Below are positions 2 through 21,325 of a DNA stretch of 22,425 bases, in pieces. Under the pieces are notes generated by a model that did no database searches, was not told the origin of the DNA, and saw nothing but the letters and a program-made list of their open reading frames with translations. The DNA comes from a virus, in the IMG/VR virus record IMGVR_UViG_3300025099_000160, positions 1 through 22,425 of that record; one strand, written 5' to 3'. Position 1 is the stretch's first letter. Each line of letters begins with the position of its first letter. The translations under genes were made by a program, and so were the position numbers.

Positions 2-796
2 ACAGATGCAGAAGATACAAGTGGAGAATCAACTAGCTATCTTACTAGCTTTGATAGTGATGGTTTTACTGTTGCTGGTGGTTATAATAATACAAATAAT
101 TCTGGTAGCACCTATGTTGGTTGGGGTTGGAAAAAACAATCTGGAGTATTTGATATAGTTACCTACACAGGAAATGGTAGCAATAGAACTATTTCACATA
201 ACTTAAATTCTATACCAACTATGATGATTATAAAAAATTATGAAAGTGGTGGAACTAATTGGTTTGTGTATCATGTAGGAATAGGAGATGCCTCAAAATA
301 TGTTAAATTAAATCAAAGTAATACTGAATCCACAAAAGCCTCTTTATTTAACTCAACAGCACCAACATCAAGTGTTTTTAGTTTAGGAACTGATAATGAT
401 GGAAATGAAAATAACCAAGATTTTATTTGTTATTTATTTGGCAACAAGCAAGGTGTAAGCCATTGTGGAAGTTTTGTCGGCAACAACTCAAGTGACGGAA
501 CATTTGTGCCATTATCTTTTAAACCAAGATGGATTATGATTAAAGGTATAAATATTGCAAGAAACTGGGGTATCAACGACACAAAAAGAAGTCCAATAAA
601 TCAAACACAAGATAGTTTATATGCAAATGTTAGTGACGCTGAAACTGGATCAGGTAATTATATAGATTTTACAGCATCAGGTTTTAAATTAAGAGATTCA
701 GCTTTAACAATGAATGGTGCATACAATTACATCTACATGGCTTTCGCTGAAAATCCATTCGTAACGTCAACTGGTGTACCAGCTTGTGCTAGATGA
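2..796 (+). CDS. Tail/receptor-binding structural protein, DUF7483-like (5' truncated)
   Basis: The frame is open from base 2, so the gene starts before the window; 264 codons remain. It reads as two related modules. The first ends in YVGWGWKK after a Ser/Gly/Asn-rich stretch. The second starts at SGVFDIVTYTGNG, passes HNL..IPTMMIIKN and NWFVYH, and ends in YNYIYMAFAENPF. The pattern 'FDIVTYTGNG..TISHNL..P.MII.K....NW.VYH' is typical of DUF7483 modules in marine phage tail or fibre proteins, probably a lectin-like beta fold at the virion surface. The partial repeat (TDAED..YLTSFDSDGFTV against SDAET..YIDFTASGFKL) suggests modular growth. It is followed by other virion genes on the same strand. 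The structural assignment is confident; a receptor-binding role is inferred. Confidence 0.75.
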   Translation, partial: TDAEDTSGESTSYLTSFDSDGFTVAGGYNNTNNSGSTYVGWGWKKQSGVFDIVTYTGNGSNRTISHNLNSIPTMMIIKNYESGGTNWFVYHVGIGDASKYVKLNQSNTESTKASLFNSTAPTSSVFSLGTDNDGNENNQDFICYLFGNKQGVSHCGSFVGNNSSDGTFVPLSFKPRWIMIKGINIARNWGINDTKRSPINQTQDSLYANVSDAETGSGNYIDFTASGFKLRDSALTMNGAYNYIYMAFAENPFVTSTGVPACAR

Positions 797-857
797 TTAT
801 GTTCGTATTTACTCACATAACCATCAAGAATAAAACAAGGTTTTAAGCAAGGTAATT

Positions 858-1199
858 ATGGCAAATTTATATAAAAACTCAATGTTTGATTTAACAACTA
901 CTAATAGTACAGTTGTTTATACCTGTCCTACAGACAGAACAGCTTTAATTAAAACTATACAAGTAACAAATATTCATAGTGGAGCTAATGAGATAGAAGC
1001 ATTTACAACAGACGCATCAAATTCTGGTGCAGTACATGAAATATCTCATATATCTTTAGCATCAAAAACTACTGAAAATTTAGCTAAAGGTACTATAGTT
1101 TTAGAATCAGGAGATACTTTAAAATTAAAAGCACAAACTGCTGACGATATAGCAGGGATAGTATGTGTATTAGAAATATTTGACGAAAAGAGTGCGTAA
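858..1199 (+). CDS. Small virion-associated protein (conserved marine phage type)
   Basis: 113 aa, preceded by AAGGTAA as ribosome-binding site. The sequence alternates short beta-strand stretches (VVYTCP, ALIKTIQVTNI, GTIVLESGDTLKLKA, GIVCVLEIFDE). I recognise the general pattern 'MAN.YKN...DLTTTN.T..YT.P..RTALIK.IQVTN' from small proteins encoded next to tail genes in cyanophages and pelagiphages. There is no signal peptide or membrane segment. A beta-sandwich decoration or tail-accessory protein is the most likely role given the neighbouring tail and ejection genes; no enzymatic motif is visible. The family resemblance is from memory and the function is inferred. Confidence 0.65.
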   Translation: MANLYKNSMFDLTTTNSTVVYTCPTDRTALIKTIQVTNIHSGANEIEAFTTDASNSGAVHEISHISLASKTTENLAKGTIVLESGDTLKLKAQTADDIAGIVCVLEIFDEKSA

Positions 1200-1234
1200 T
1201 AATATATTGTTATTAATCATTTTTTAATGTATTT

Positions 1235-1678
1235 ATGGAATTAGTACAAATACCAATTAAAGAACTTGATAAAGTTTGGGGTATGGTAGAAAAAAATATC
1301 AAATCTGCTTTAGCTTATTCAGGTCAACTTACCGATTCAGATTTTGTTTACGACCTAGCTAAACAAGGTAAATTTCAAGTTTGGGTTATTTGGGATAAAA
1401 ACCAAAAAAAAACAAATGATAAATATTTTGGTGTAGTCGTTACTGAAATAATAAAAAGAAAACATGGTAAAGTATGTCATGTCTATATTGTAACTGGAAG
1501 GCAAATGTCTAAGTGGCAACATCTCATAAGTAGAGTTGAAGAATTTGCTAAAGACGAAGGTTGCAAAATGATGGAACTAATTGCTAGACCAGGTTGGCAA
1601 AAAGTCTATAATAATCATGGTTACAAAAGAACCCATGTTGTTTTAGAAAAACAAATTAAACAAGAGGATAAAATATGA
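1235..1678 (+). CDS. GNAT-fold acetyltransferase-like protein
   Basis: 147 aa. The C-terminal half has the GNAT layout: a central strand (HVYIVTG, about residue 82), a helix (WQHLISRVEEFAKDEGC), a strand (MMELIARP), then a helix and final strand (GWQKVYNNHGYKRTHVVLEK). Position and spacing match motifs A and B of N-acetyltransferases, but the classical Q/RxxGxG/A pyrophosphate loop is degenerate (TGRQMSKWQ), so acetyl-CoA binding is uncertain. Such GNAT-like proteins are common between tail and ejection genes in marine podovirus-like genomes, where their substrate is unknown. The stop overlaps the next start (ATGA), indicating translational coupling. It may be catalytically inactive and structural. 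Confidence 0.6.
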   Translation: MELVQIPIKELDKVWGMVEKNIKSALAYSGQLTDSDFVYDLAKQGKFQVWVIWDKNQKKTNDKYFGVVVTEIIKRKHGKVCHVYIVTGRQMSKWQHLISRVEEFAKDEGCKMMELIARPGWQKVYNNHGYKRTHVVLEKQIKQEDKI

Positions 1679-2385
1679 GTTTTGGCGGAGGATCATCAGG
1701 CGGTAATACAGCAACAACACAAGGGGTAACACCTTATGCAGCAGCAGAACCTGCTTTAGGACAAATACTTTCAGAAGCTACAAATTTATATGGTCAAGGT
1801 GTAGGTGCAACTGGATATGTTCCACCATCACAACAAACTTTAACAGGACTTGCAGGACAAGAAGCATTAGGTACAGCTGCACAACAACAAATGGCTGCAA
1901 CACTTGGTGGACAATATTTAAATCCTTTCCTTTCACCCTTATTACAAAAAACTGCTGGAGATGTTTATACTAATGTAGCACAACAATTTAGTGGTGCAGG
2001 TAGAACACCAGGTTCTCCAATGATGCAAAATCAAGTAGTTTCTCAAGTAGCTCAAGCTGCACTACCTTTAGCATTTCAAGAATATGGTCAAGAAAGAGGT
2101 AGACAATTAGGTTTAGCTACTCAAGTACCTAGTTTAACTCAAACAGGATCTCAATTAGAAAACATTCAAAGACAACAACAACTAGCTCCACTACAAGCAT
2201 TACAACAATATGCAAGTTTAGCTACTCCAATAGCAAGTGGATTTCCAGTAACAACTGCTCAATCTCAAACACAAGCTAATCCATTCTCAACTGCTATGGG
2301 TGGTGCTTTATTAGGTGGATCATTCGGTGGAGCTCCAGGTGCTATAGTTGGTGGTATAGGTGGATTATTAGGAGGACTATTATAA
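1675..2385 (+). CDS. Putative DNA-ejection/internal virion protein with glycine-zipper tail
   Basis: 236 aa, coupled to the preceding gene by ATGA. It starts Gly/Ser-rich (residues 1-13), has a Gln- and Ala-rich helical middle with little charge (about 60-180, many QQQ runs), and ends in a Gly/Ala/Leu-rich segment (about 205-236, ALLGGSFGGAPGAIVGG). That tail resembles a glycine-zipper membrane-inserting helix. This composition is typical of P22 gp7-like ejection proteins that leave the capsid and help form a channel across the envelope. It heads a run of similar proteins through 6889. The role is inferred from composition and order; no catalytic motif is seen. Confidence 0.6.
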   Translation: MSFGGGSSGGNTATTQGVTPYAAAEPALGQILSEATNLYGQGVGATGYVPPSQQTLTGLAGQEALGTAAQQQMAATLGGQYLNPFLSPLLQKTAGDVYTNVAQQFSGAGRTPGSPMMQNQVVSQVAQAALPLAFQEYGQERGRQLGLATQVPSLTQTGSQLENIQRQQQLAPLQALQQYASLATPIASGFPVTTAQSQTQANPFSTAMGGALLGGSFGGAPGAIVGGIGGLLGGLL

Positions 2386-2495
2386 TGGATAAAATAAATA
2401 AAATAATTTACGATTTAAAAACAGACATAGATAATAATACATCTAAGTATATTATTATACTTGGTGTACTATTTGTAATTTCAATAATTTTATAA
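2385..2495 (+). CDS. 36-aa single-pass membrane protein
   Basis: A short frame starts in a TAATG overlap with the previous stop and ends 9 bp before the next ATG. The first 21 residues are charged and polar (MDKINKIIYDLKTDIDNNTS). Residues 22-36 are almost purely hydrophobic (YIIILGVLFVISIIL), giving one C-terminal membrane helix. The exact overlap with its neighbour and the lack of any other use of this 110-bp stretch support a real gene. It could be a small inner-membrane partner of the flanking ejection proteins. No family is recognised. Confidence 0.55.
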   Translation: MDKINKIIYDLKTDIDNNTSKYIIILGVLFVISIIL

Positions 2496-2504
2496 GGAGA
2501 ATTT

Positions 2505-3248
2505 ATGGCTGGTGGTAGAGATGCTTCACAATCCGATTTCGGTGGTTCATCAAGTGGTGGTAATAATAATTCTGATGGTGGAGATGCTAGAGAACAATAT
2601 GGTGCTGTAGGTCAATATTCATCTCCTAGTCCTAGTCCTACTTCAAGTGGTGATGGTGGTGACAGACCAACTATGGCAGATATAGCTGGAGCAATAACAT
2701 CTACACCTGATATGTCACATTTTGGAGATACAGGAGATATAATACAAGCAGATTTTACACCTTACAATGTAAGACCAGATACCATTACAAGTTTTTTTGA
2801 TAACTATGCAGCTAATGTTAAATCAAATCCATTAAATCTTGGAGTAATTGGTGGATTAAAAACATTATATCAAACTCAACAAGCTAAAGATTTGTTAGGT
2901 TTTGGATCATCTGGATTTCAAGGTGGTGATGGTGATGGTGGTGATGGTGGTGATGGAGAACAAGCATTTATAAATAATGCAATATCTCAATTACCTTATG
3001 CTATGACAGGAACAACACCTCAAGATTCTATGGTCAATCAATACTTTAGTAATCTTGGCACATCAGGTTCAGGGTTAAGTTCTGATTTGCAAACTAGCTA
3101 TAATAATGCTAAAAATAACATCAGTAGTATATTGGGTACAAATCAGCAGTTTGGCTATTCTACAGCTCCCTATGGCTTATTAAGTAGCATAAATATGGCA
3201 GACAACCCTTTCAATATACCATACTTACAACAAAGAGGATTAATATAA
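2505..3248 (+). CDS. Gly/Ser/Asp-rich virion protein
   Basis: 247 aa with a strong ribosome-binding site (AAGGAGA) 6 bp upstream. The first 55 residues are low-complexity Gly/Ser/Asn/Asp. A second low-complexity block (GGDGDGGDGGDG, about residues 141-152) is encoded by a short tandem DNA repeat. Between and after them are more ordered stretches (PDTITSFFDNYAANVKSNP; INNAISQLPYAMTG; YNNAKNNISSILGT). There is no signal peptide or membrane helix. It lies between two ejection-type genes and overlaps the next by TAATG, so an internal virion or ejection role is likely but unproven. The flexible glycine linkers suit a protein that must unfold for passage through the tail. Confidence 0.55.
   Translation: MAGGRDASQSDFGGSSSGGNNNSDGGDAREQYGAVGQYSSPSPSPTSSGDGGDRPTMADIAGAITSTPDMSHFGDTGDIIQADFTPYNVRPDTITSFFDNYAANVKSNPLNLGVIGGLKTLYQTQQAKDLLGFGSSGFQGGDGDGGDGGDGEQAFINNAISQLPYAMTGTTPQDSMVNQYFSNLGTSGSGLSSDLQTSYNNAKNNISSILGTNQQFGYSTAPYGLLSSINMADNPFNIPYLQQRGLI
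2922..2956 (+). repeat. GGTGAT/GGT microsatellite inside the 2505 gene
   Basis: About 35 bp made only of GGT and GAT codons, encoding alternating Gly-Gly-Asp. It is the most repetitive stretch of the late region and could change length by replication slippage, varying the length of the linker. Confidence 0.7.
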
Positions 3249-4183
3249 TGATAGATTTTTCAGAAAGATTAAAAAAATTACAAGGTTTATTAAATTCACC
3301 AATGAATCAATCTGGTGGACTTTTAGATAAAATACCTCAAGGTGCTTTATTGGGTTCTGCTATTTATGGTCAAGGTATTCAAGGCAAAGATCCTTTTGCA
3401 TCATTACTTCCTGCTGCTTTACAAACAGCACAATTACAAAAATATATGACTCCTAAAGCTAGTACTACAAAAGCTGTTTATAATTCAAAAACAGGTAAAA
3501 CTGAATTTGCTACTGAAAGAGAAATTGCAGCTAATCCTAATTTATCCCCAGCACCTACAGGAACAGTAACAAGATTCAATACTGAAACAGGTCAAGTTGA
3601 GATATTACCAGCAGGTATGGCAGGACAACAAATTAAAGATCAAACAACAGCAAGATCAATAGGAACTCAATATGGTATATTAGAAGATTTTATTGGAGAT
3701 ATGAAAAATAGACTACCTGAAACTAAAACAGGAGCTGTTGGTATAGGTTATTCTGTTGTAGAAAATCTAGCAGATCAAACCTCACAATTAGCAGAAAGTT
3801 TAGGTGTAAAAGATACTTTAAAAATTGAAAATACAGAAGCATTAGATAATTATTTAAAATCAAAAGGATTTACAAAAGCTGCACAAAATTATGCAACAAT
3901 GAAAGGTTCAGTTACTAATGTAGGTTATGCTTTAGCAAAAATTGCAGAACCTGATAACCCAAGATTATCTGAAGGTGATATTATAAGACAATTAGATAGA
4001 CTTAATTTTGGTGGTTCAAGAGAAGTATTTGCAGCATCTTTAGATCAAATTTTAAAAGAAGAAGGAATAAGAGCTAAAGCAGAAATGCAATCTTTAGGTG
4101 GTGATATGTCTATATTTGATCCACAAAAAAATAATAAAAAAAAAGAAAAAGAACAAGGCGATATACTTGATTTAGGATTTTAA
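3248..4183 (+). CDS. Putative internal virion/ejection protein
   Basis: 311 aa, start overlapping the previous stop (TAATG). Residues 20-75 are Gly/Ala/Leu-rich (GGLLDKIPQGALLGSAIYG; LLPAALQTAQL). About 80-125 has beta-type repeats (KAVYNSKTGKTEFAT; TVTRFNTETGQVEILP). The rest is helical, with MKGSVTNVGYALAKIAEPD near residue 220, then LSEGDIIRQLDRL and SREVFAASLDQILKEEG. This helical block is a pattern seen in internal virion proteins of marine podovirus-like phages. The C-terminus is Lys-rich. The following gene starts on the next base, so the two are tightly co-translated. The assignment rests on context and composition. Confidence 0.55.
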   Translation: MIDFSERLKKLQGLLNSPMNQSGGLLDKIPQGALLGSAIYGQGIQGKDPFASLLPAALQTAQLQKYMTPKASTTKAVYNSKTGKTEFATEREIAANPNLSPAPTGTVTRFNTETGQVEILPAGMAGQQIKDQTTARSIGTQYGILEDFIGDMKNRLPETKTGAVGIGYSVVENLADQTSQLAESLGVKDTLKIENTEALDNYLKSKGFTKAAQNYATMKGSVTNVGYALAKIAEPDNPRLSEGDIIRQLDRLNFGGSREVFAASLDQILKEEGIRAKAEMQSLGGDMSIFDPQKNNKKKEKEQGDILDLGF

Positions 4184-6889
4184 ATGCCAAAAAGTATTCA
4201 AGATATAAAAAAAGAATATCCTTACTACAAAAATGTGCCTGATTTAGAATTGGCAGATAGAATTTACGATAAATATTATAAAGAAAAAGAAGTTAGTAAG
4301 GAAGATTTTTATTTAAATGCTTTTCCAGATTTAGCAGATCAAATTGTAGAAAATCAAGATTTAATTTCTCCAGATGATGAAATGTTTTTACCTGAAGGTG
4401 GTAGAGAACTTTTAAATTTTAGACCTACAGTAGGAATGATTGCTGAAAGATCAGGAGTATCTATTGACGATCCTGCAACTGCATCTTCAAGAATGGGTGG
4501 ATCATTTGGTATAAATCCAGAACAAAAAGCTATTGCAATTAAAAATTCTTTATCAAAATTATATGGTCAAGATATAGATGTTCGTATTGGTGCTAATACA
4601 GGTCAACTTGAATATTATAATCCAAAAAAAAAACAATATTCTTTAGTAGATAAACCAGGTGTTGATATAGGTGATTTTGGAGATATGGCTGGTGATGCTA
4701 TGGTTATTATTCCTGATTTAGCTGTTACAGTTTTAACAGCTCCAGTTTTAGGTACAGGTGCTATTCCAGCAGGTGCTGTTGCAGCAGGTGTTGGAGAATA
4801 TGCAAGATTAAAAATAGGTCAAGTAGCTTACGATATTAATAAAAAAAATCAAGATGGTTCTGAAATAACTGATGGTCAATTATTTAACGAAGCTGCAAAA
4901 ACTGCTGGAGTGTCATTAGCTTTTGGATATGGTGGATTAGGTGCTGCAAAAATTATTAAAGGAGTAAATAATATTGTTAAAGGTAGAATACAAAGTGATG
5001 ATTTTGTTGATTTAGTTAATAGTAAAACAGATGCTGAAGATATTTCAAAAGCAATTAATTCTAAATTAGAAGAAGCAAAATTAAATACAAAATTAAGGTT
5101 TAAAACATCTCAAGCATTAGATGATCCAGATTTAATGGCTGCACAAGAAGTCTTTGAAAAATCTAACAGACTAGGTTATGTGGGAGATTTTAAAAGAGCT
5201 AATACTGCTGAAATGAATGCACTTAATGATTATTTTACTTTATTAAGGTCAGAATTTGATCCTAAAGGATTATATAAAAATCAAAATCAATATGATTTAG
5301 GAAATTTAATAAAAGGAGTTATTACAAAAAGAAATGAACCTCAAATTAAATCATTAATTAAACAACAAGAAACAACAGAAAATTTATTAAATCAAACTAT
5401 TAATGAATTACCTAATGGAACTAAGGTTGCTACAGGTGTAAATGTTAGAGATGCAATAACTAGCACTAGAGAAATATTTAAAAAACAATCAGATTTTGCT
5501 TTACAAAAATTAAATCAAGCATCTGGTGGAATACAAATAAAAACAGATATTATTAGTGGTGCTTTAAAAACTTTAGAAAAACAAGGAAAAGATAATATTT
5601 TTAATTCTGCTGAATCTAGTTTAGCAAAAAGTGTTAAAAATAAAAAAATATTAAAAGGGGAAGTAGATGTTCCAGTTACAACTTTAAGAAATGCTATGTC
5701 TTATTTAAATAGACAAATCAGAAAAGGTGAAAAAGGATTAACTACTGAAGATATAGATGTTGGTGCTTTAAAATTTATGGTTGGTGAAATTAATAAACAA
5801 GTTCGTAGAGATGCACCAGATTCATTTGTAAATGCTTTTGATATTTTTAATGATGTTTATGCTAAAGGTAAAGCAAAATTAGATAATACTATTATAGCTG
5901 ATATTATGAAAATTAGAAATAAACAATTAGTTTATGGTGATGAAGCTATATTTAAAACTACTTTTAAAACAGGAAATAATAGCAAAAAAGTTGCAGATGA
6001 TTTATATGATGTAATTAAAGATTATCCAGATGCTATGTTAGCTTATAAAAATTCTATAAATGATTTTTACAAACAAGAAGTAATTGATAATCTTGGTAAA
6101 GCTAATTTAATTAAACATAGAAATTTTTTAAAAAACTATGAAGATAAATTAAAAGTATTTTTTACACCTAAGGAATATAATAAAATTACTAAAATTGGAG
6201 GACTTCAAGAAACTGTAAATAACATAGAAAAAACAAGATCAGATTTAATAAAACAATTAAGTAAATCATTTGAAGGTAAACTAGAAAGTTCTACTCCAGG
6301 TGAGTTAGTTAATAAAATTTATAAACCAAATAATATTGGTGAAATTAGACAGTTAAAAAATATCTTATCTAAAGATCCTGATATATTTCAAGCATTTCAA
6401 ACTAATGTAATGAAAGACTTAAATGAAAGAGTTACTGTAAAAAATGGTTCTTTGGGAATGGATATTATAAGTCCTGAAAGATTTAAACAATATGTTTATG
6501 GTTCAGGTGGTGAAAAAGGTTACCAATTTGCTATGAAAGAAATATTTGGTAAAGAATTTATGGGTAATATAAAAACTTTAAATGATGCTTTACAAATTAC
6601 AGCAAGATCAGCTCCTGCTTCTTTACAAAGAGAAGGTGTTTATGGTAATTTCTTTACAGATATAATTAGAGCAAGAGTAGGACAATTTACTCCTACTGGT
6701 AGATTGTTAACAGCAGGTAAAAGAATATACACTAGATCATCCAATGCTATACTTAAGAATGCTATTTTAAATCCTGAATCTTTAAAAGATTTAGTAAAAT
6801 TAAAAACCTTAAAGAAAAGTTCTGCCGAAGCTGCATATATTTTAGGCAAATTAAATGGAATGATTTTTATGGATTATACTCAAGGATAA
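4184..6889 (+). CDS. Large internal virion/DNA-ejection protein (901 aa)
   Basis: The longest protein in the window. The N-terminus is acidic and helical (about 1-75). A hydrophobic Gly/Ala-rich region covers roughly residues 165-260 (AMVIIPDLAVTVLTAPVLG; AIPAGAVAAGVGEYA; VSLAFGYGGLGAAKIIKG), suitable for membrane insertion. Residues 270-880 are almost entirely charged helices and coiled-coil-like. This layout matches the large proteins that close the ejection operon in short-tailed phages, comparable to T7 gp16 or P22 gp16 in size and context. I see no transglycosylase motif (no clear catalytic Glu in a lysozyme-like context). Codon use is the same as its neighbours. A tail tape measure is a less likely alternative because of its position after the tail fibre. 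Confidence 0.6.
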   Translation: MPKSIQDIKKEYPYYKNVPDLELADRIYDKYYKEKEVSKEDFYLNAFPDLADQIVENQDLISPDDEMFLPEGGRELLNFRPTVGMIAERSGVSIDDPATASSRMGGSFGINPEQKAIAIKNSLSKLYGQDIDVRIGANTGQLEYYNPKKKQYSLVDKPGVDIGDFGDMAGDAMVIIPDLAVTVLTAPVLGTGAIPAGAVAAGVGEYARLKIGQVAYDINKKNQDGSEITDGQLFNEAAKTAGVSLAFGYGGLGAAKIIKGVNNIVKGRIQSDDFVDLVNSKTDAEDISKAINSKLEEAKLNTKLRFKTSQALDDPDLMAAQEVFEKSNRLGYVGDFKRANTAEMNALNDYFTLLRSEFDPKGLYKNQNQYDLGNLIKGVITKRNEPQIKSLIKQQETTENLLNQTINELPNGTKVATGVNVRDAITSTREIFKKQSDFALQKLNQASGGIQIKTDIISGALKTLEKQGKDNIFNSAESSLAKSVKNKKILKGEVDVPVTTLRNAMSYLNRQIRKGEKGLTTEDIDVGALKFMVGEINKQVRRDAPDSFVNAFDIFNDVYAKGKAKLDNTIIADIMKIRNKQLVYGDEAIFKTTFKTGNNSKKVADDLYDVIKDYPDAMLAYKNSINDFYKQEVIDNLGKANLIKHRNFLKNYEDKLKVFFTPKEYNKITKIGGLQETVNNIEKTRSDLIKQLSKSFEGKLESSTPGELVNKIYKPNNIGEIRQLKNILSKDPDIFQAFQTNVMKDLNERVTVKNGSLGMDIISPERFKQYVYGSGGEKGYQFAMKEIFGKEFMGNIKTLNDALQITARSAPASLQREGVYGNFFTDIIRARVGQFTPTGRLLTAGKRIYTRSSNAILKNAILNPESLKDLVKLKTLKKSSAEAAYILGKLNGMIFMDYTQG

Positions 6890-11152: not shown

Positions 11153-11755
11153 TTAGTGTTTATTTAAGTATTTGACCTTTTTATTATATTTTCGTATAAA
11201 GGTATTGGCTAACTTTAATTTAGTTTGCCATTTACTTATTAGTTTTTGGTAGTGTTCTAATTTCTTTAGTCGTTTTTCATCTTTGGACAAGATAACGACT
11301 TTAGGCTTTAGGACACCATTTAACCAACCTTGATTGACAACATATTTTGCCATTTCAAGTTCTAGTTCAGCTTGTTGTATAGAATGTGGTTTAAAACCAT
11401 TTTGATTGTTCCTTGCAAAACCATGTCTATATCTATAAACCTTATGAGATATTACATGAACAATATCTCTCCATCCTTTAATAGGACTTTTTGGATTACC
11501 AGATAAACAAACATAAGTTTTATACCAAACATTCTTAACTGATCTGTACCTTGTCATATTATATTTAATACTAGGAGGTGCAAATCTTGGCTTTCCAAAT
11601 TTAACCATAAGTTTTTTGACAGCTTTTTCTGCTTCAACTTTGGTTACATAAGGAATGTTTTGTTTTTCCCAATACTCATTTACCTCATCATACTTAACAC
11701 TCATTCTTAAGTTATAAGGTAAAATGTTTAGTGAGTCTTGTGGTGGTGTTATCAT
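11153..11755 (-). CDS. Uncharacterised 200-aa protein in its own transcription unit
   Basis: Start set at 11755 because AAGGAG lies 9 bases upstream; an in-frame TTG further upstream (11776) lies 5' of that ribosome-binding site and is unlikely. It has no recognised family. Noticeable parts: a His-rich segment GWRDIVHVISHKVYRYRHG with HVISH (an HxxxH pattern), then KPHSIQQAELELEMAKYV, and a basic coiled C-terminus (KRLKKLEHYQKLISKWQTKL). The clustered His plus Glu suggest a metal site, but the spacing is not a classical HExxH protease. It has its own promoter (11866-11874) and is bracketed by an inverted repeat, like a moron gene. Convergent with the late genes, so its 3' end may overlap late transcripts. 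Confidence 0.65.
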   Translation of the reverse strand: MITPPQDSLNILPYNLRMSVKYDEVNEYWEKQNIPYVTKVEAEKAVKKLMVKFGKPRFAPPSIKYNMTRYRSVKNVWYKTYVCLSGNPKSPIKGWRDIVHVISHKVYRYRHGFARNNQNGFKPHSIQQAELELEMAKYVVNQGWLNGVLKPKVVILSKDEKRLKKLEHYQKLISKWQTKLKLANTFIRKYNKKVKYLNKH

Positions 11756-15645: not shown

Positions 15646-16302
15646 TCAATTTGAGAGTTTATCATTATCAAATATTATTGTTGCATTAAAACTAAATGAG
15701 ATTCTTTCCTTATCTTCATCATCAGTATTATAGGGATAAACAACATGAGAAAGAGAATTAGGAAATAATATCCAATCCCTAACCTCTGGCATAACTCTAT
15801 AAGAATTATTATTAAACATATTTTCTGATCCTTCTATAAACTCAGTTTGACCTGAGAAATCGTTATGTTCTTTTGCGTTAGTTGTTGAAATCATTTTAGG
15901 TATTTGTAAATAACCAACGCAACTTAAATGATAATTACCATGCACATATTCAGTATGGGTATGGCAAGGGTTATAATCTCCAGGTTTTGATATTACATAC
16001 CAAGCAGAATTAATTAAAATAGATTTAATTTTATGGTCTATATGATTTTTGACATAAGCATTAATAATTGGATCAAAAAACTTTTGTTTCCATTTAAGCA
16101 TAATTTCTGGTGAGATTAGATACTCTGAATCTACATGACCAACTAACTTTTTAGACCAATCATGGTTCTTTTGTTTCTCTTTATCTTGTCTTATTTGTTT
16201 TAAATCATCTTGAAAATCTTTCATTAATCCTAATGGCATAACTGCTTTAGCAACTGTTGAACCAAAAGGTTTAAATAATTTAAAATTTATCTTGTCTGAC
16301 AT
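15646..16302 (-). CDS. 2OG-Fe(II) oxygenase-like protein
   Basis: 218 aa. The beta-helix core is visible: INSAWYVISKPGDYNPCHTH (residues 97-116), VGYLQIPKM, then VRDWILFPNSLSHVVYPY (174-191) and ERISFSFNATI (199-209). Candidate iron ligands are H114/H116 and H186, and R200 with S202 fits the 2-oxoglutarate-binding R-x-S. The order matches phage 2OG oxygenases of the 2OG-FeII_Oxy_5 type (family name from memory). It could hydroxylate a protein, nucleotide or base. It overlaps the nuclease-like gene by 23 bp and lies in a module with a Mom-like protein. Substrate unknown. Confidence 0.75.
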   Translation of the reverse strand: MSDKINFKLFKPFGSTVAKAVMPLGLMKDFQDDLKQIRQDKEKQKNHDWSKKLVGHVDSEYLISPEIMLKWKQKFFDPIINAYVKNHIDHKIKSILINSAWYVISKPGDYNPCHTHTEYVHGNYHLSCVGYLQIPKMISTTNAKEHNDFSGQTEFIEGSENMFNNNSYRVMPEVRDWILFPNSLSHVVYPYNTDDEDKERISFSFNATIIFDNDKLSN

Positions 16303-16804: not shown

Positions 16805-17461
16805 TTATAATAGTGTAAATTGTGTGTTAATATTATTATTTGTTTTGTAATTTTTATTAATTCCTTTTGGATAATTTGAAATAGGATATTTTAATTCTTT
16901 AAATAGTTTTTTTTTATTTTTTTTATTAGCAATAATATAAATATATCTATGCTTTCTTGGTCTATCTATTAAATAAAATTTATCAGGATTATTTTTTCTT
17001 TCTTCTAAAGTGTATTGTTCGCAAATTGTTTTACTATGTTTGTTGGTATTTTTCATTCTCCATTCAGTTCTTTTATCTGATAATCCAGTATATATAAAAT
17101 TAGTTGCTTGATATATATAACCATGATGATTTTGACTTGTATCAGCATAAGAAACTAAAATTGTTGGTTTTGGTAATAATTTAAATGAATTACCAACTAA
17201 ATAAGATGCTTCATTTTTTTTATTATATTTTAAAACCAATCTATTTAATTCTAAAATTATTTTTCTGTTATGAACTCCAGCTATTCCTTTGCATAATGAT
17301 TGTGATGGTGGAGAACCATAACAAACTATTCCTACAAGTTCATTTTTATAAAATAAACCAAATGAATAACTAATACTTGGCATTCTTTTAGCATAATGAA
17401 TATTTAATATAAAAGGTTTGGTATCTTCATAAGATATTTTATGAACAGAATAATCAATCAT
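16805..17461 (-). CDS. Mom-like DNA modification protein (GNAT fold)
   Basis: 218 aa, ribosome-binding site AGGAG. It follows phage Mu Mom, which adds a carbamoylmethyl group to adenine N6 and so blocks restriction. Shared blocks: H22-Y23 in NIHYAKRMP, FGLFYKNELVGIVCYGSPP, ILELNRLVL with R74, LVSYADTSQ with D107, and GYIYQATNFIYTG with Y117. These match the Mom residues predicted as active (His-Tyr, Arg, Asp, Tyr) in order and near-equal spacing. The C-terminus (141-218) is a basic Lys/Asn-rich extension absent from Mu Mom. Encoded beside a 2OG oxygenase, a nuclease-like gene and a lipoprotein. Confidence 0.75.
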   Translation of the reverse strand: MIDYSVHKISYEDTKPFILNIHYAKRMPSISYSFGLFYKNELVGIVCYGSPPSQSLCKGIAGVHNRKIILELNRLVLKYNKKNEASYLVGNSFKLLPKPTILVSYADTSQNHHGYIYQATNFIYTGLSDKRTEWRMKNTNKHSKTICEQYTLEERKNNPDKFYLIDRPRKHRYIYIIANKKNKKKLFKELKYPISNYPKGINKNYKTNNNINTQFTLL

Positions 17462-19661: not shown

Positions 19662-19834
19662 TACTCCTCCTTTATTAGTTTAACTATATTATTAAAGTAT
19701 TGTTTAGGTAAAGGAACTATATCTTCCTTTATTCTATATTTAACATCTTCCATGTCCATAAAGTCGTAAAACTTCTTACCTTTATTTTGCGATTCTAGGA
19801 TATTGGTTATTGATTTGTAGTCTTTAGCTTTCAT
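19661..19834 (-). CDS. 57-aa hypothetical early protein
   Basis: Start set at 19834 because GGAGAG lies 9 bases upstream; an earlier in-frame ATG lies inside the previous gene without a ribosome-binding site. Helical sequence: KAKDYKSITNILESQNKGKK, then FYDFMDMEDVKYRIKEDI and a C-terminal helix (QYFNNIVKLIKEE). No motif. Overlaps both neighbours. Confidence 0.5.
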   Translation of the reverse strand: MKAKDYKSITNILESQNKGKKFYDFMDMEDVKYRIKEDIVPLPKQYFNNIVKLIKEE

Positions 19835-20210
19835 TTTTATCTTCTCTCCAATAATTCCAACCATCTCTATTTATTCTTATAGATTTTGGAGCAATCATTT
19901 TTATAAATGTTAATAAATGCCAAACTGCAAGATCATAAGGTTTTCTAGCAGTTTTACAAAAATTAAATTTTACATTGTCATCATTGTAAAAAGGTTCTCT
20001 AAAATTTTTAGTTAAAACAAAAGTTTCATGGTCAAGATTATTTTTAGATTTACCATTAAAAATAATTTCATCAGATTTTTCCGTTTGATCCTCTATTATA
20101 CCCTCATCATCTGAAAAATTATCTTTAATATATTCATATTCTTTTTTAATAATATTCCATTCTTTATTATTAAAGGGTTTTAATTGATCCCAATAGTTAG
20201 TATATCCCAT
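19824..20210 (-). CDS. 128-aa MGYTNYW-family early protein
   Basis: The start at 20210 is preferred: AAAGGAAAAT lies upstream, whereas the in-frame ATG at 20243 falls inside the hammerhead ribozyme core. It begins GYTNYWDQLKPFNNKEW and has RKPYDLAVWHLLTFIKMI followed by PKSIRINRDGWNYW. The combination 'MGYTNYW....' and 'ARKPYD.A+...L...+.....+.I.+DG' recurs in small uncharacterised phage and bacterial proteins. It is the first gene after the ribozyme, so its mRNA would begin with a 5'-hydroxyl end after cleavage. Function unknown. Confidence 0.65.
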   Translation of the reverse strand: MGYTNYWDQLKPFNNKEWNIIKKEYEYIKDNFSDDEGIIEDQTEKSDEIIFNGKSKNNLDHETFVLTKNFREPFYNDDNVKFNFCKTARKPYDLAVWHLLTFIKMIAPKSIRINRDGWNYWREDKNES

Positions 20211-20235
20211 TTTATTTTCCTTTCTTTTAGTTTCT

Positions 20236-20290
20236 GACCTCATCAGTTAGGGATTAACCCTAAGACACCCCTTGTGAGGGTGTTTCGGTC
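20236..20290 (-). ncRNA. Type II hammerhead self-cleaving ribozyme
   Basis: Minus strand, 5' to 3': GACC (stem II, 20290-20287), GAAA core (20286-20283), stem III CACCC/GGGTG (20282-20278 with 20270-20266) plus the A15.1-U16.1 pair and a possible T-G pair, U16.1-C17 giving a GUC cleavage site (C at 20264), stem I TTAGGG/CCCTAA (20263-20258 with 20252-20247) with loop TTAAT, core CTGATGA (20246-20240), then GGTC (20239-20236) closing stem II. G10.1-C11.1 is present. Stem II may extend through an AAA/AG internal loop to GTTT/AAAC (20297-20230). Every invariant core position fits. It starts two bases after the stop codon ending at 20292. Cleavage would be between 20264 and 20263. Confidence 0.9.
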
Positions 20291-20291
20291 T

Positions 20292-20762
20292 TTAAACTGC
20301 TAATATTTTGTATTTTTGTACTTTACCCTCCATAATATCCATTAAACCTTTTTGCCAATCATTTTTAAATTCATCTTTAATTTGTTTAATCCATTCATAT
20401 GATCTTAATTCATTGTCAAACCACATCCACTTTTTCTCTGTTTTCCAAATATTCTCATCATAATATTTTAATATTTCACTTGCTCTACTATCATCAATAA
20501 ATAAATATTTAGTCTGTGGAATATCATTTCTAACATTATCATTATTATAAATATCATTCATTCCATCAAAAGAACCATATTCAAATTGATAAGAATATTC
20601 TTTTAATTTATTAAAAGCATTGTCAGAACCTTTTAAAACATTAATTTTAACATGATCTCCCATACTATAATTTTTACTAGATCCAGTAACTGTAAGACCT
20701 AGTTCCTTTGCTTTCTTTTTTAATAATTTATTTACTTGAGCTGCTTCTGATAGTTTTCTCAT
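20292..20762 (-). CDS. 156-aa early protein, LPD29-like
   Basis: Start set at 20762, where AAAGGAAAG lies upstream; an earlier in-frame ATG is in the leader. N-terminal helix (SEAAQVNKLLKKKAKELGL), then KINVLKGSDNAFNKLKEYSY, QFEYGSFDGMNDIYNND, KYLFIDDSRASEILKYYDE and helices rich in Trp. The 'V.I.V.+G........+..+.YGSFDGM.D.Y' section resembles large polyvalent protein domain LPD29, known from phage and mobile-element proteins (family name from memory, low certainty). First gene of the leftward early operon, next to its promoter; the hammerhead ribozyme follows its stop codon. Confidence 0.55.
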   Translation of the reverse strand: MRKLSEAAQVNKLLKKKAKELGLTVTGSSKNYSMGDHVKINVLKGSDNAFNKLKEYSYQFEYGSFDGMNDIYNNDNVRNDIPQTKYLFIDDSRASEILKYYDENIWKTEKKWMWFDNELRSYEWIKQIKDEFKNDWQKGLMDIMEGKVQKYKILAV

Positions 20763-20798
20763 GTTTCTTTCCTTTGTTGATTTGTTAAACATACTATT

Positions 20799-20826
20799 TT
20801 TATATAACATTTGTTCTATATTGCAA
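20799..20826 (-). promoter_or_regulatory. Leftward early promoter
   Basis: Minus strand: -35 TTGCAA (20826-20821), 16-bp spacer, -10 TATAAA (20804-20799). Transcription would begin near 20792 and run through the early operon. The TTGCAA box is itself palindromic. The nearest gene start is at 20762. Confidence 0.5.
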
Positions 20827-20876
20827 GTGTTAAAAGCTAGAAGGGAATAAAAATATATGTTCGCTAAATGTTCTTA

Positions 20877-20903
20877 TTGATTACCCAAAATTTGACATAT
20901 AAA
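20877..20903 (+). promoter_or_regulatory. Rightward promoter for replication/packaging genes (tentative)
   Basis: Plus strand: TTGATT (20877-20882), a short 15-bp spacer and TATAAA (20898-20903), 30 bp upstream of the gene at 20933. A TTGACA (20892-20897) sits immediately before the -10 but is too close to serve it. The divergent layout with the leftward promoter, about 50 bp apart, suggests a shared regulatory region. Confidence 0.35.
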
Positions 20904-20932
20904 GAGGTCTAGCAAGGAAGGAATAAAAGAAG

Positions 20933-21325
20933 ATGGAAAAAGTTAAAAAAGGGTTCGCTATGATCCCAAATTCAATAATATATGATGATAAGATAGGGAA
21001 TGAAGCTAAAGTCTTATTTTGCTATATAAAGTCATTATCTGCTAATTATAGGAATTTGAGAAACTCTAATTTATGCAAGAAACTTGGTGTTTCTGTAAAT
21101 ACCTTACAAAAAGCTAAAAAAGAGCTGGTTGATAATGGTTACTTAATTATTCACAGGTTATCAAGTGCCAATAGATATACCCTAAGACTACCCAAAATTA
21201 GGGTAGGCAGGGTGTCAAAATTTAAGCAATCAGACTACCCAAAAAATGGGTACCATTTAGAGAGTAATAACAATAGTAATAATAACAATAATAATAAGAA
21301 AAAGTTTAAAGGTTTTAAGAAATGA
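20933..21325 (+). CDS. Winged-helix replication-initiator-like protein
   Basis: 130 aa, ribosome-binding site AAGGAAGG. N-terminal winged helix: KGFAMIPNSIIYDDKIGNEA, KVLFCYIKSLSANYRNLRNS, LCKKLGVSVNTLQKAKKELV (recognition helix) and DNGYLIIHRLSSANRYTL (wing). This is the HTH_36 / phage replication-protein N-terminal plan (lambda O or replisome-organiser style). After it is a short basic region with an Asn-run (NNNNNN, about 115-120) and a Lys-rich tail, not a DnaC-loading domain. It starts the rightward unit, and the Asn/Lys tail is encoded by a short AAT/AAC repeat. Could instead be a transcription regulator. Confidence 0.65.
   Translation: MEKVKKGFAMIPNSIIYDDKIGNEAKVLFCYIKSLSANYRNLRNSNLCKKLGVSVNTLQKAKKELVDNGYLIIHRLSSANRYTLRLPKIRVGRVSKFKQSDYPKNGYHLESNNNSNNNNNNKKKFKGFKK

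Follow-up and report, generated by a model that had tools for sequence, protein, structure and literature searches.

The window analysed here, the whole 22,425-nt stretch of viral DNA, is a 22.4-kb fragment whose minus strand carries a leftward regulatory and replication operon, and the element with which we are concerned follows the first gene of that operon, the early-operon position assigned to it in a preliminary description made from the sequence alone. This first gene (20292..20762, minus strand) encodes a 156-residue protein of the LPD29 (polyvalent-protein-associated) family; PF18847 (LPD29) is weakly matched by 10 of 11 members of the upstream family, with a best E value of 1e-4, and gives no match to the window copy. 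Polyvalent proteins of phages and conjugative elements are known to carry LPD29 domains. Ahead of the gene lies a divergent leader (20763..21000, minus strand) that is conserved with pelagiphage HTVC106P over 242 nt at 94.7-98.1% identity (20759-21000 of the window with 36756-36945 plus 1-52 of that genome), and the next gene in the operon (19824..20210, minus strand) encodes a 128-residue protein of the MGYTNYW family, which has no known function. The two genes are separated by one complete type II hammerhead ribozyme (20236..20290, minus strand), the single copy in the window, and by a short segment (20219..20235, minus strand) in which an AGAAAC tail and a Shine-Dalgarno-like AGAAAGG precede the downstream start codon. 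Only one base, A 20291, stands between the TAA stop codon (20294-20292) and the motif, rather than the two counted earlier. Elsewhere in the early operon (16805-17461 and 15646-16302) are genes for a Mom-like DNA-modification protein and a 2OG-Fe(II) oxygenase, possibly with roles in counter-defence.

Read directly along the minus strand from 20290 to 20236, the ribozyme begins with GACC (20290-20287), which pairs with the terminal GGUC (20239-20236) to form an open stem II of 4 bp. GAAA (20286-20283) follows, and its last base opens the 7 bp of stem III (A-U, five further pairs and U-G; 20283-20277 with 20271-20265), in which CACCCU and GGGGUGU flank the loop CACAA. C17 of the GUC triplet is at 20264; beyond it, UUAGGG (20263-20258) and CCCUAA (20252-20247) form the 6 bp of stem I around the loop UUAAU, and CUGAUGA (20246-20240) leads back to stem II. 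The core CUGANGA, GAAA and an NUH cleavage triplet are all present in the type II order, as are three stems, backed by covariation, of which I and III are closed by loops and II is open. The minimum free energy fold is exactly this hammerhead structure (-21.1 kcal/mol, z -2.2). The earlier assignment as a complete type II hammerhead with an open stem II is borne out by these readings, and the GUC triplet, which links stem III to stem I, places the predicted cut where it was put earlier, after C20264 (C17) and before U20263 (20263..20264, minus strand).

A search of the minus strand with the Rfam Hammerhead_II model (RF02276), suggested in the same description, does find the ribozyme, as the only meaningful Rfam match of the window, but at 31.9 bits (E=0.0054), under the gathering cut-off of 37 bits, a curators' threshold rather than a structural feature; a family covariance model built here, R1, matches it strongly. 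The Rfam alignment misses the real 4-bp pairing of stem II (GACC/GGUC) and inserts 5 nt there. A mir-3613 match at 11248-11321 was rejected as a sub-threshold chance match. Nothing resembling an intrinsic terminator, that is, a G+C-rich hairpin followed by a T run, was found between 19600 and 21000, and promoter-like sites near the ribozyme are no more frequent than in shuffled sequences.

The score under the Rfam cut-off might be taken to mean a hammerhead look-alike that is decayed or without activity, or just an ordinary pair of hairpins. We consider this extremely improbable, as the core, the cleavage triplet and the three stems are intact and are conserved with compensatory changes, and as descriptor matches do not arise in randomised sequence: a strict type II descriptor gave 297 matches in 2.74 Mb of viral loci, which had been fetched partly for the motif, and none in 13.7 Mb of order-2 Markov replicas, in reversed sequences or in 0.88 Mb of cellular loci. 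The argument is carried by an unselected set of 14 loci with a full-length homologue of the upstream gene (at least 72% identity), found by protein similarity without using the ribozyme. All 14 have an intact ribozyme right behind the stop codon of that gene, the catalytic core is identical in all 15 copies whose loci were selected through the upstream gene, that of the window among them, and no broken core was seen among these 15. In an alignment of 12 distinct sequences, from 13 of the 14 close-homologue loci or their neighbours and from the window, 5 of 16 pairs have changed on both sides and 96% of cells are paired, as against 35-55% when the partners are slid by 1-3 columns. The columns of the stem III hairpin covary, and in three loci (L009, L012 and L020) this stem is inverted, with GGGGG/CCCCC for CCC/GGG around a two-base mismatch. 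Compensatory changes, which the preliminary description had proposed to look for in related phages, are thus found in each of the three stems, also where the flanking gene alone was used to fetch the loci. A wider set of 17 diverse sequences shows changes on both sides in 12 of 16 pairs; this count is weaker evidence because a pairing descriptor had served to select the set.

The ribozyme is one of many. Two pattern scans of viral contigs, used together with R1, yielded at least 129 and at least 104 distinct ribozyme contexts and at least 204 distinct ribozyme sequences, and R1 itself finds close relatives in more than 100 uncultivated phage contigs. A 17-mer pattern in viral contigs led to a whole ribozyme in 109 of the 118 loci listed and to a cut-off half in one more (L115); in 11.3 million cellular contigs the same 17-mer, CTGAYGAGRYCAGAAAC, also had matches, with a hammerhead at none of the 118 loci listed, and the CTGAYGAGRYCAGAAAC pattern gave no lead among the matches listed in prophages of sequenced hosts. 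Searches of cultured phages by blastn with the region or the motif returned only the short HTVC106P leader match and chance matches; this variant was not found in the cultured phages of the phage collection, where the nearest isolate, HTVC106P, is without it, and there was no ribozyme match in HTVC106P or in the part of HTVC027P that was searched.

In relatives, several hammerheads on the coding strand flank single genes, with up to 11 per record. The largest array (L355, a 67.6-kb record) has 11 copies within about 5 kb (166-5156, minus strand); each of them sits between small co-directional ORFs, whose products are mostly of no known function. A 125.7-kb record has nine copies, at both of its ends, and two further records have seven copies each in a whole-record search; in the arrays of 11, 9 and 7 the copies are on one strand. 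An 8.2-kb record (L129) has eight copies, one of them weak. In 14 records just three copies pass the Rfam cut-off as against about 60 found with R1, while some of the L355 copies do pass. Beside the ribozymes of two different array phages (L342 and L123) are genes for an ATPase (phrog_1297) and a protein of an 'HNH endonuclease' family (phrog_1314), the latter being read by Pfam, in L342, as a DUF2201 metallopeptidase/VWA protein. The ribozyme in the window belongs to a large and mostly unannotated phage family that probably cuts long transcripts into single-gene messages.

What sets these relatives apart structurally is their compactness. The stem I hairpin (20247..20263 in the window, 6 bp and a UUAAU pentaloop) has a fixed length of 17 nt in 83 of 96 relatives and, in a second set that was selected for part of the 17-nt loop pattern, in 95 of 101, in both cases among the matches listed; its loop of 5 nt follows U-[U/A]-A-N-[U/G]. 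The majority of type II hammerheads, although not all, are reported to have a pseudoknot that joins loop I to the 3' tail (PMC3088659). In other type II ribozymes this pseudoknot supports fast cleavage. Here, potential for such a pseudoknot of at least 4 bp occurs in 18-19% of both observed and permuted sequences, and the mean helix is no longer than in permuted controls. The AGAAAC tail was considered as a universal mark of the family and rejected, since a scan without the tail requirement showed that it marks only the subfamily of the window.

Where the ribozymes are placed appears to follow rules. In 101 of the 129 contexts listed, a distance of 0-2 nt separates the end of the upstream stop codon from the base that opens stem II, compared with 1.3% at random positions, and in 67 of those 101 the last base of the stop codon, typically the G of UAG, is also the first base of the ribozyme. 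In the second set of 104 contexts, selected neither for the tail nor for a stop codon, the stop codon is 0-2 nt away in 47 and at most 5 nt away in 77 of those listed. The downstream ATG is more loosely spaced than the upstream stop. Where loci are AT-rich, a ribozyme is preceded by a median of one co-directional gene; counted from a strand switch, 97% of ribozymes but 48% of all co-directional junctions fall within the first three genes, a comparison in which the nominal p-value is too small as the loci are related. Behind the ribozyme in L023 (4641-4760), L027, L030, L032, L169 and L192 is a conserved promoter-like stretch (TTGATT, 16 nt, TATAAA) in place of a gene, and it is for this reason that a description as an element that splits two genes does not suit some of the copies.

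The genes on either side, by contrast with the tight placement at the stop codon, are freely exchanged. The 97 AT-rich copies are flanked by at least 39 upstream and at least 47 downstream protein families, with at least 67 distinct gene combinations among the 85 for which both neighbours are known; the upstream LPD29 family is followed by at least 16 different downstream families, and in most relatives the place held in the window by the MGYTNYW gene is occupied by other genes. So many combinations around one conserved sequence, together with identical copies within one contig (L084, L103 and L121), are what would be expected if the ribozyme DNA were chiefly a homology patch for swapping early genes by recombination, with cleavage secondary. 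This seems unlikely to us, as a homology patch needs sequence identity and not compensatory changes in all stems around an invariant catalytic core, and neighbouring ribozymes of the L129 array differ in stem sequence.

HTVC106P has a different first gene behind the same leader, and no ribozyme, so gene and ribozyme appear to have been exchanged as one unit. The shared leader with its differing first genes has the look of a conserved early promoter and leader ahead of swappable genes. At a more distant orthologous junction that has no ribozyme (L017, 2298-2329), a plain 13-bp hairpin stands behind the stop codon, and a still different homologue, also distant, has a strong terminator-like hairpin right behind the stop and no ribozyme (L019, 1381-1450).

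We consider it quite probable that we are dealing with a self-cleaving hammerhead of type II that punctuates the operon and creates mRNA ends. On the emerging early transcript, the ribozyme would fold just past the stop codon that closes the first gene and cut at 20264|20263. The upstream message would be left with a near-minimal 3' UTR that finishes at the stem III hairpin (20265..20283) with a 2',3'-cyclic phosphate about 28 nt past the stop codon, and the downstream message would begin with a 5'-OH on the hairpin of stem I, followed by the ribosome-binding site. In this way each gene of the early cassette would become a separate message with structured ends, whatever its neighbour. Exonucleases that act from the 3' end are hindered by a hairpin there, and the RNase E decay that depends on a 5' monophosphate acts poorly on a 5'-OH end; such end protection may matter for these phage messages, and cleavage in the cell may affect mRNA stability or translation and may benefit the phage. 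It is tempting to speculate further that cleavage may wait until translation has cleared the site, given that a terminating ribosome would cover stem II and GAAA. The putative role of operon splitter put forward in the preliminary description fits the anatomy of at least about 230 relatives. Counting against the reading as a whole are the cultured phages searched, which yielded no copy of the variant, the copies that precede a promoter-like stretch, and a loop I-tail pseudoknot that is not evident.

It is possible, although in our estimate the case falls somewhat short of even, that the ribozyme mainly serves the upstream gene as a substitute for a terminator, providing a defined, hairpin-protected 3' end, and that what comes next is incidental. 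This is favoured by spacing that is much tighter on the side of the upstream stop than on that of the downstream start, by the constancy of the ribozyme across all 14 close relatives of the upstream gene, whose downstream neighbours vary, by its absence from HTVC106P where the same leader precedes another first gene, by the plain hairpin at the orthologous place in L017 and by the several copies that precede a promoter-like stretch. The AGAAAC subfamily, however, is also regular in its downstream spacing and its ribosome-binding site, and the arrays do not let a 5' role be told from a 3' role. Within the punctuation model, the closer tie to the stop codon, the replacement by hairpins and the copies before promoter-like stretches suggest the 3' end of the upstream mRNA as the main product. 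A third use of the predicted ends is conceivable, in which paired ribozymes free the RNA of each gene, with its 5'-OH and 2',3'-cyclic phosphate, which an enzyme such as RtcB could then close into a circular mRNA. Arrays would yield fragments with exactly those ends, but the window has one ribozyme only, an RtcB gene is present in 0 of 14 ribozyme-bearing records (several of them fragments), and circular or spliced products were not detected for other phage hammerheads (PMC3088659), so that we regard this as very unlikely.

Returning to operon punctuation, the more general proposal is that compact, pseudoknot-free type II hammerheads are a standard device of many uncultivated phages, in which stop-codon-fused makers of 3' ends, set in arrays, give swappable early host-takeover genes separate, end-protected mRNAs; we see the case for and against this broader statement as about evenly balanced. 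Since current covariance-model thresholds miss most such ribozymes in phage metagenomes, self-cleavage in phage mRNAs has probably been undercounted. The biological role of prokaryotic hammerheads was called open in a 2017 review (PMC6155905), and a consistent rule, by which the ribozyme starts at a stop codon, at the first junctions of an early operon and between any pair of genes, offers a concrete hypothesis for that role that can be tested by a single core mutation. Natural ribozymes that are fused to stop codons and whose products are sealed by hairpins could also serve as insulators in multigene constructs.

In the early mRNA of T7, the host RNase III cuts a polycistronic transcript between genes. 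The parallel is close in that a polycistronic early phage transcript is cut between genes and hairpin ends are left, but T7 uses the host enzyme whereas here the RNA is predicted to cut itself, leaving 5'-OH and 2',3'-cyclic phosphate ends. The theta (HDV-like) ribozymes of gut phages are likewise small self-cleaving RNAs in phage genomes with a proposed role in RNA processing; they belong to another ribozyme class and are tied to tRNA genes and recoding (PMC10879173). Also close are the bacterial type II hammerheads (RF02276; Perreault et al. 2011, PMC3088659), which share the circular permutation with an open stem II, the core CUGANGA, GAAA and NUH, and an occurrence in phages or prophages, sometimes several nearby, and from which the present ribozymes differ in the fixed 17-nt hairpin I with its 5-nt loop, in having no pseudoknot beyond permutation and in scoring mostly under the Rfam cut-off. 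In prophages of Agrobacterium, Azorhizobium and Clostridium scindens, clusters of hammerheads flank single genes or small gene blocks, as they do in relatives of the window; cleavage has been shown for these clusters in vitro and, for Agrobacterium, in E. coli, and they were proposed to process long phage transcripts to mRNAs of gene length (PMC3088659). Type II hammerheads, their prophage association, gene-flanking clusters, the cleavage of such clusters and the idea of operon splitting were all published in 2011. The term 'stop codon' is absent from that paper, and in the literature searched, which largely left aside subscription journals and preprints, we found no description of stop-codon fusion, of arrays this large or of the compact variant. 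Abutment to the stop codon, the separation of the first one to three operon genes, in arrays of up to 8 (L129) and 11 (the 67.6-kb record) with freely swapped flanks, and compactness, with a 17-nt hairpin I and no loop I-tail pseudoknot above chance, look new. Relative to the prophage clusters, what distinguishes the ribozymes described here is that they reside in uncultivated phages, reach up to 11 copies, abut stop codons and are biased to the first genes of the operon.
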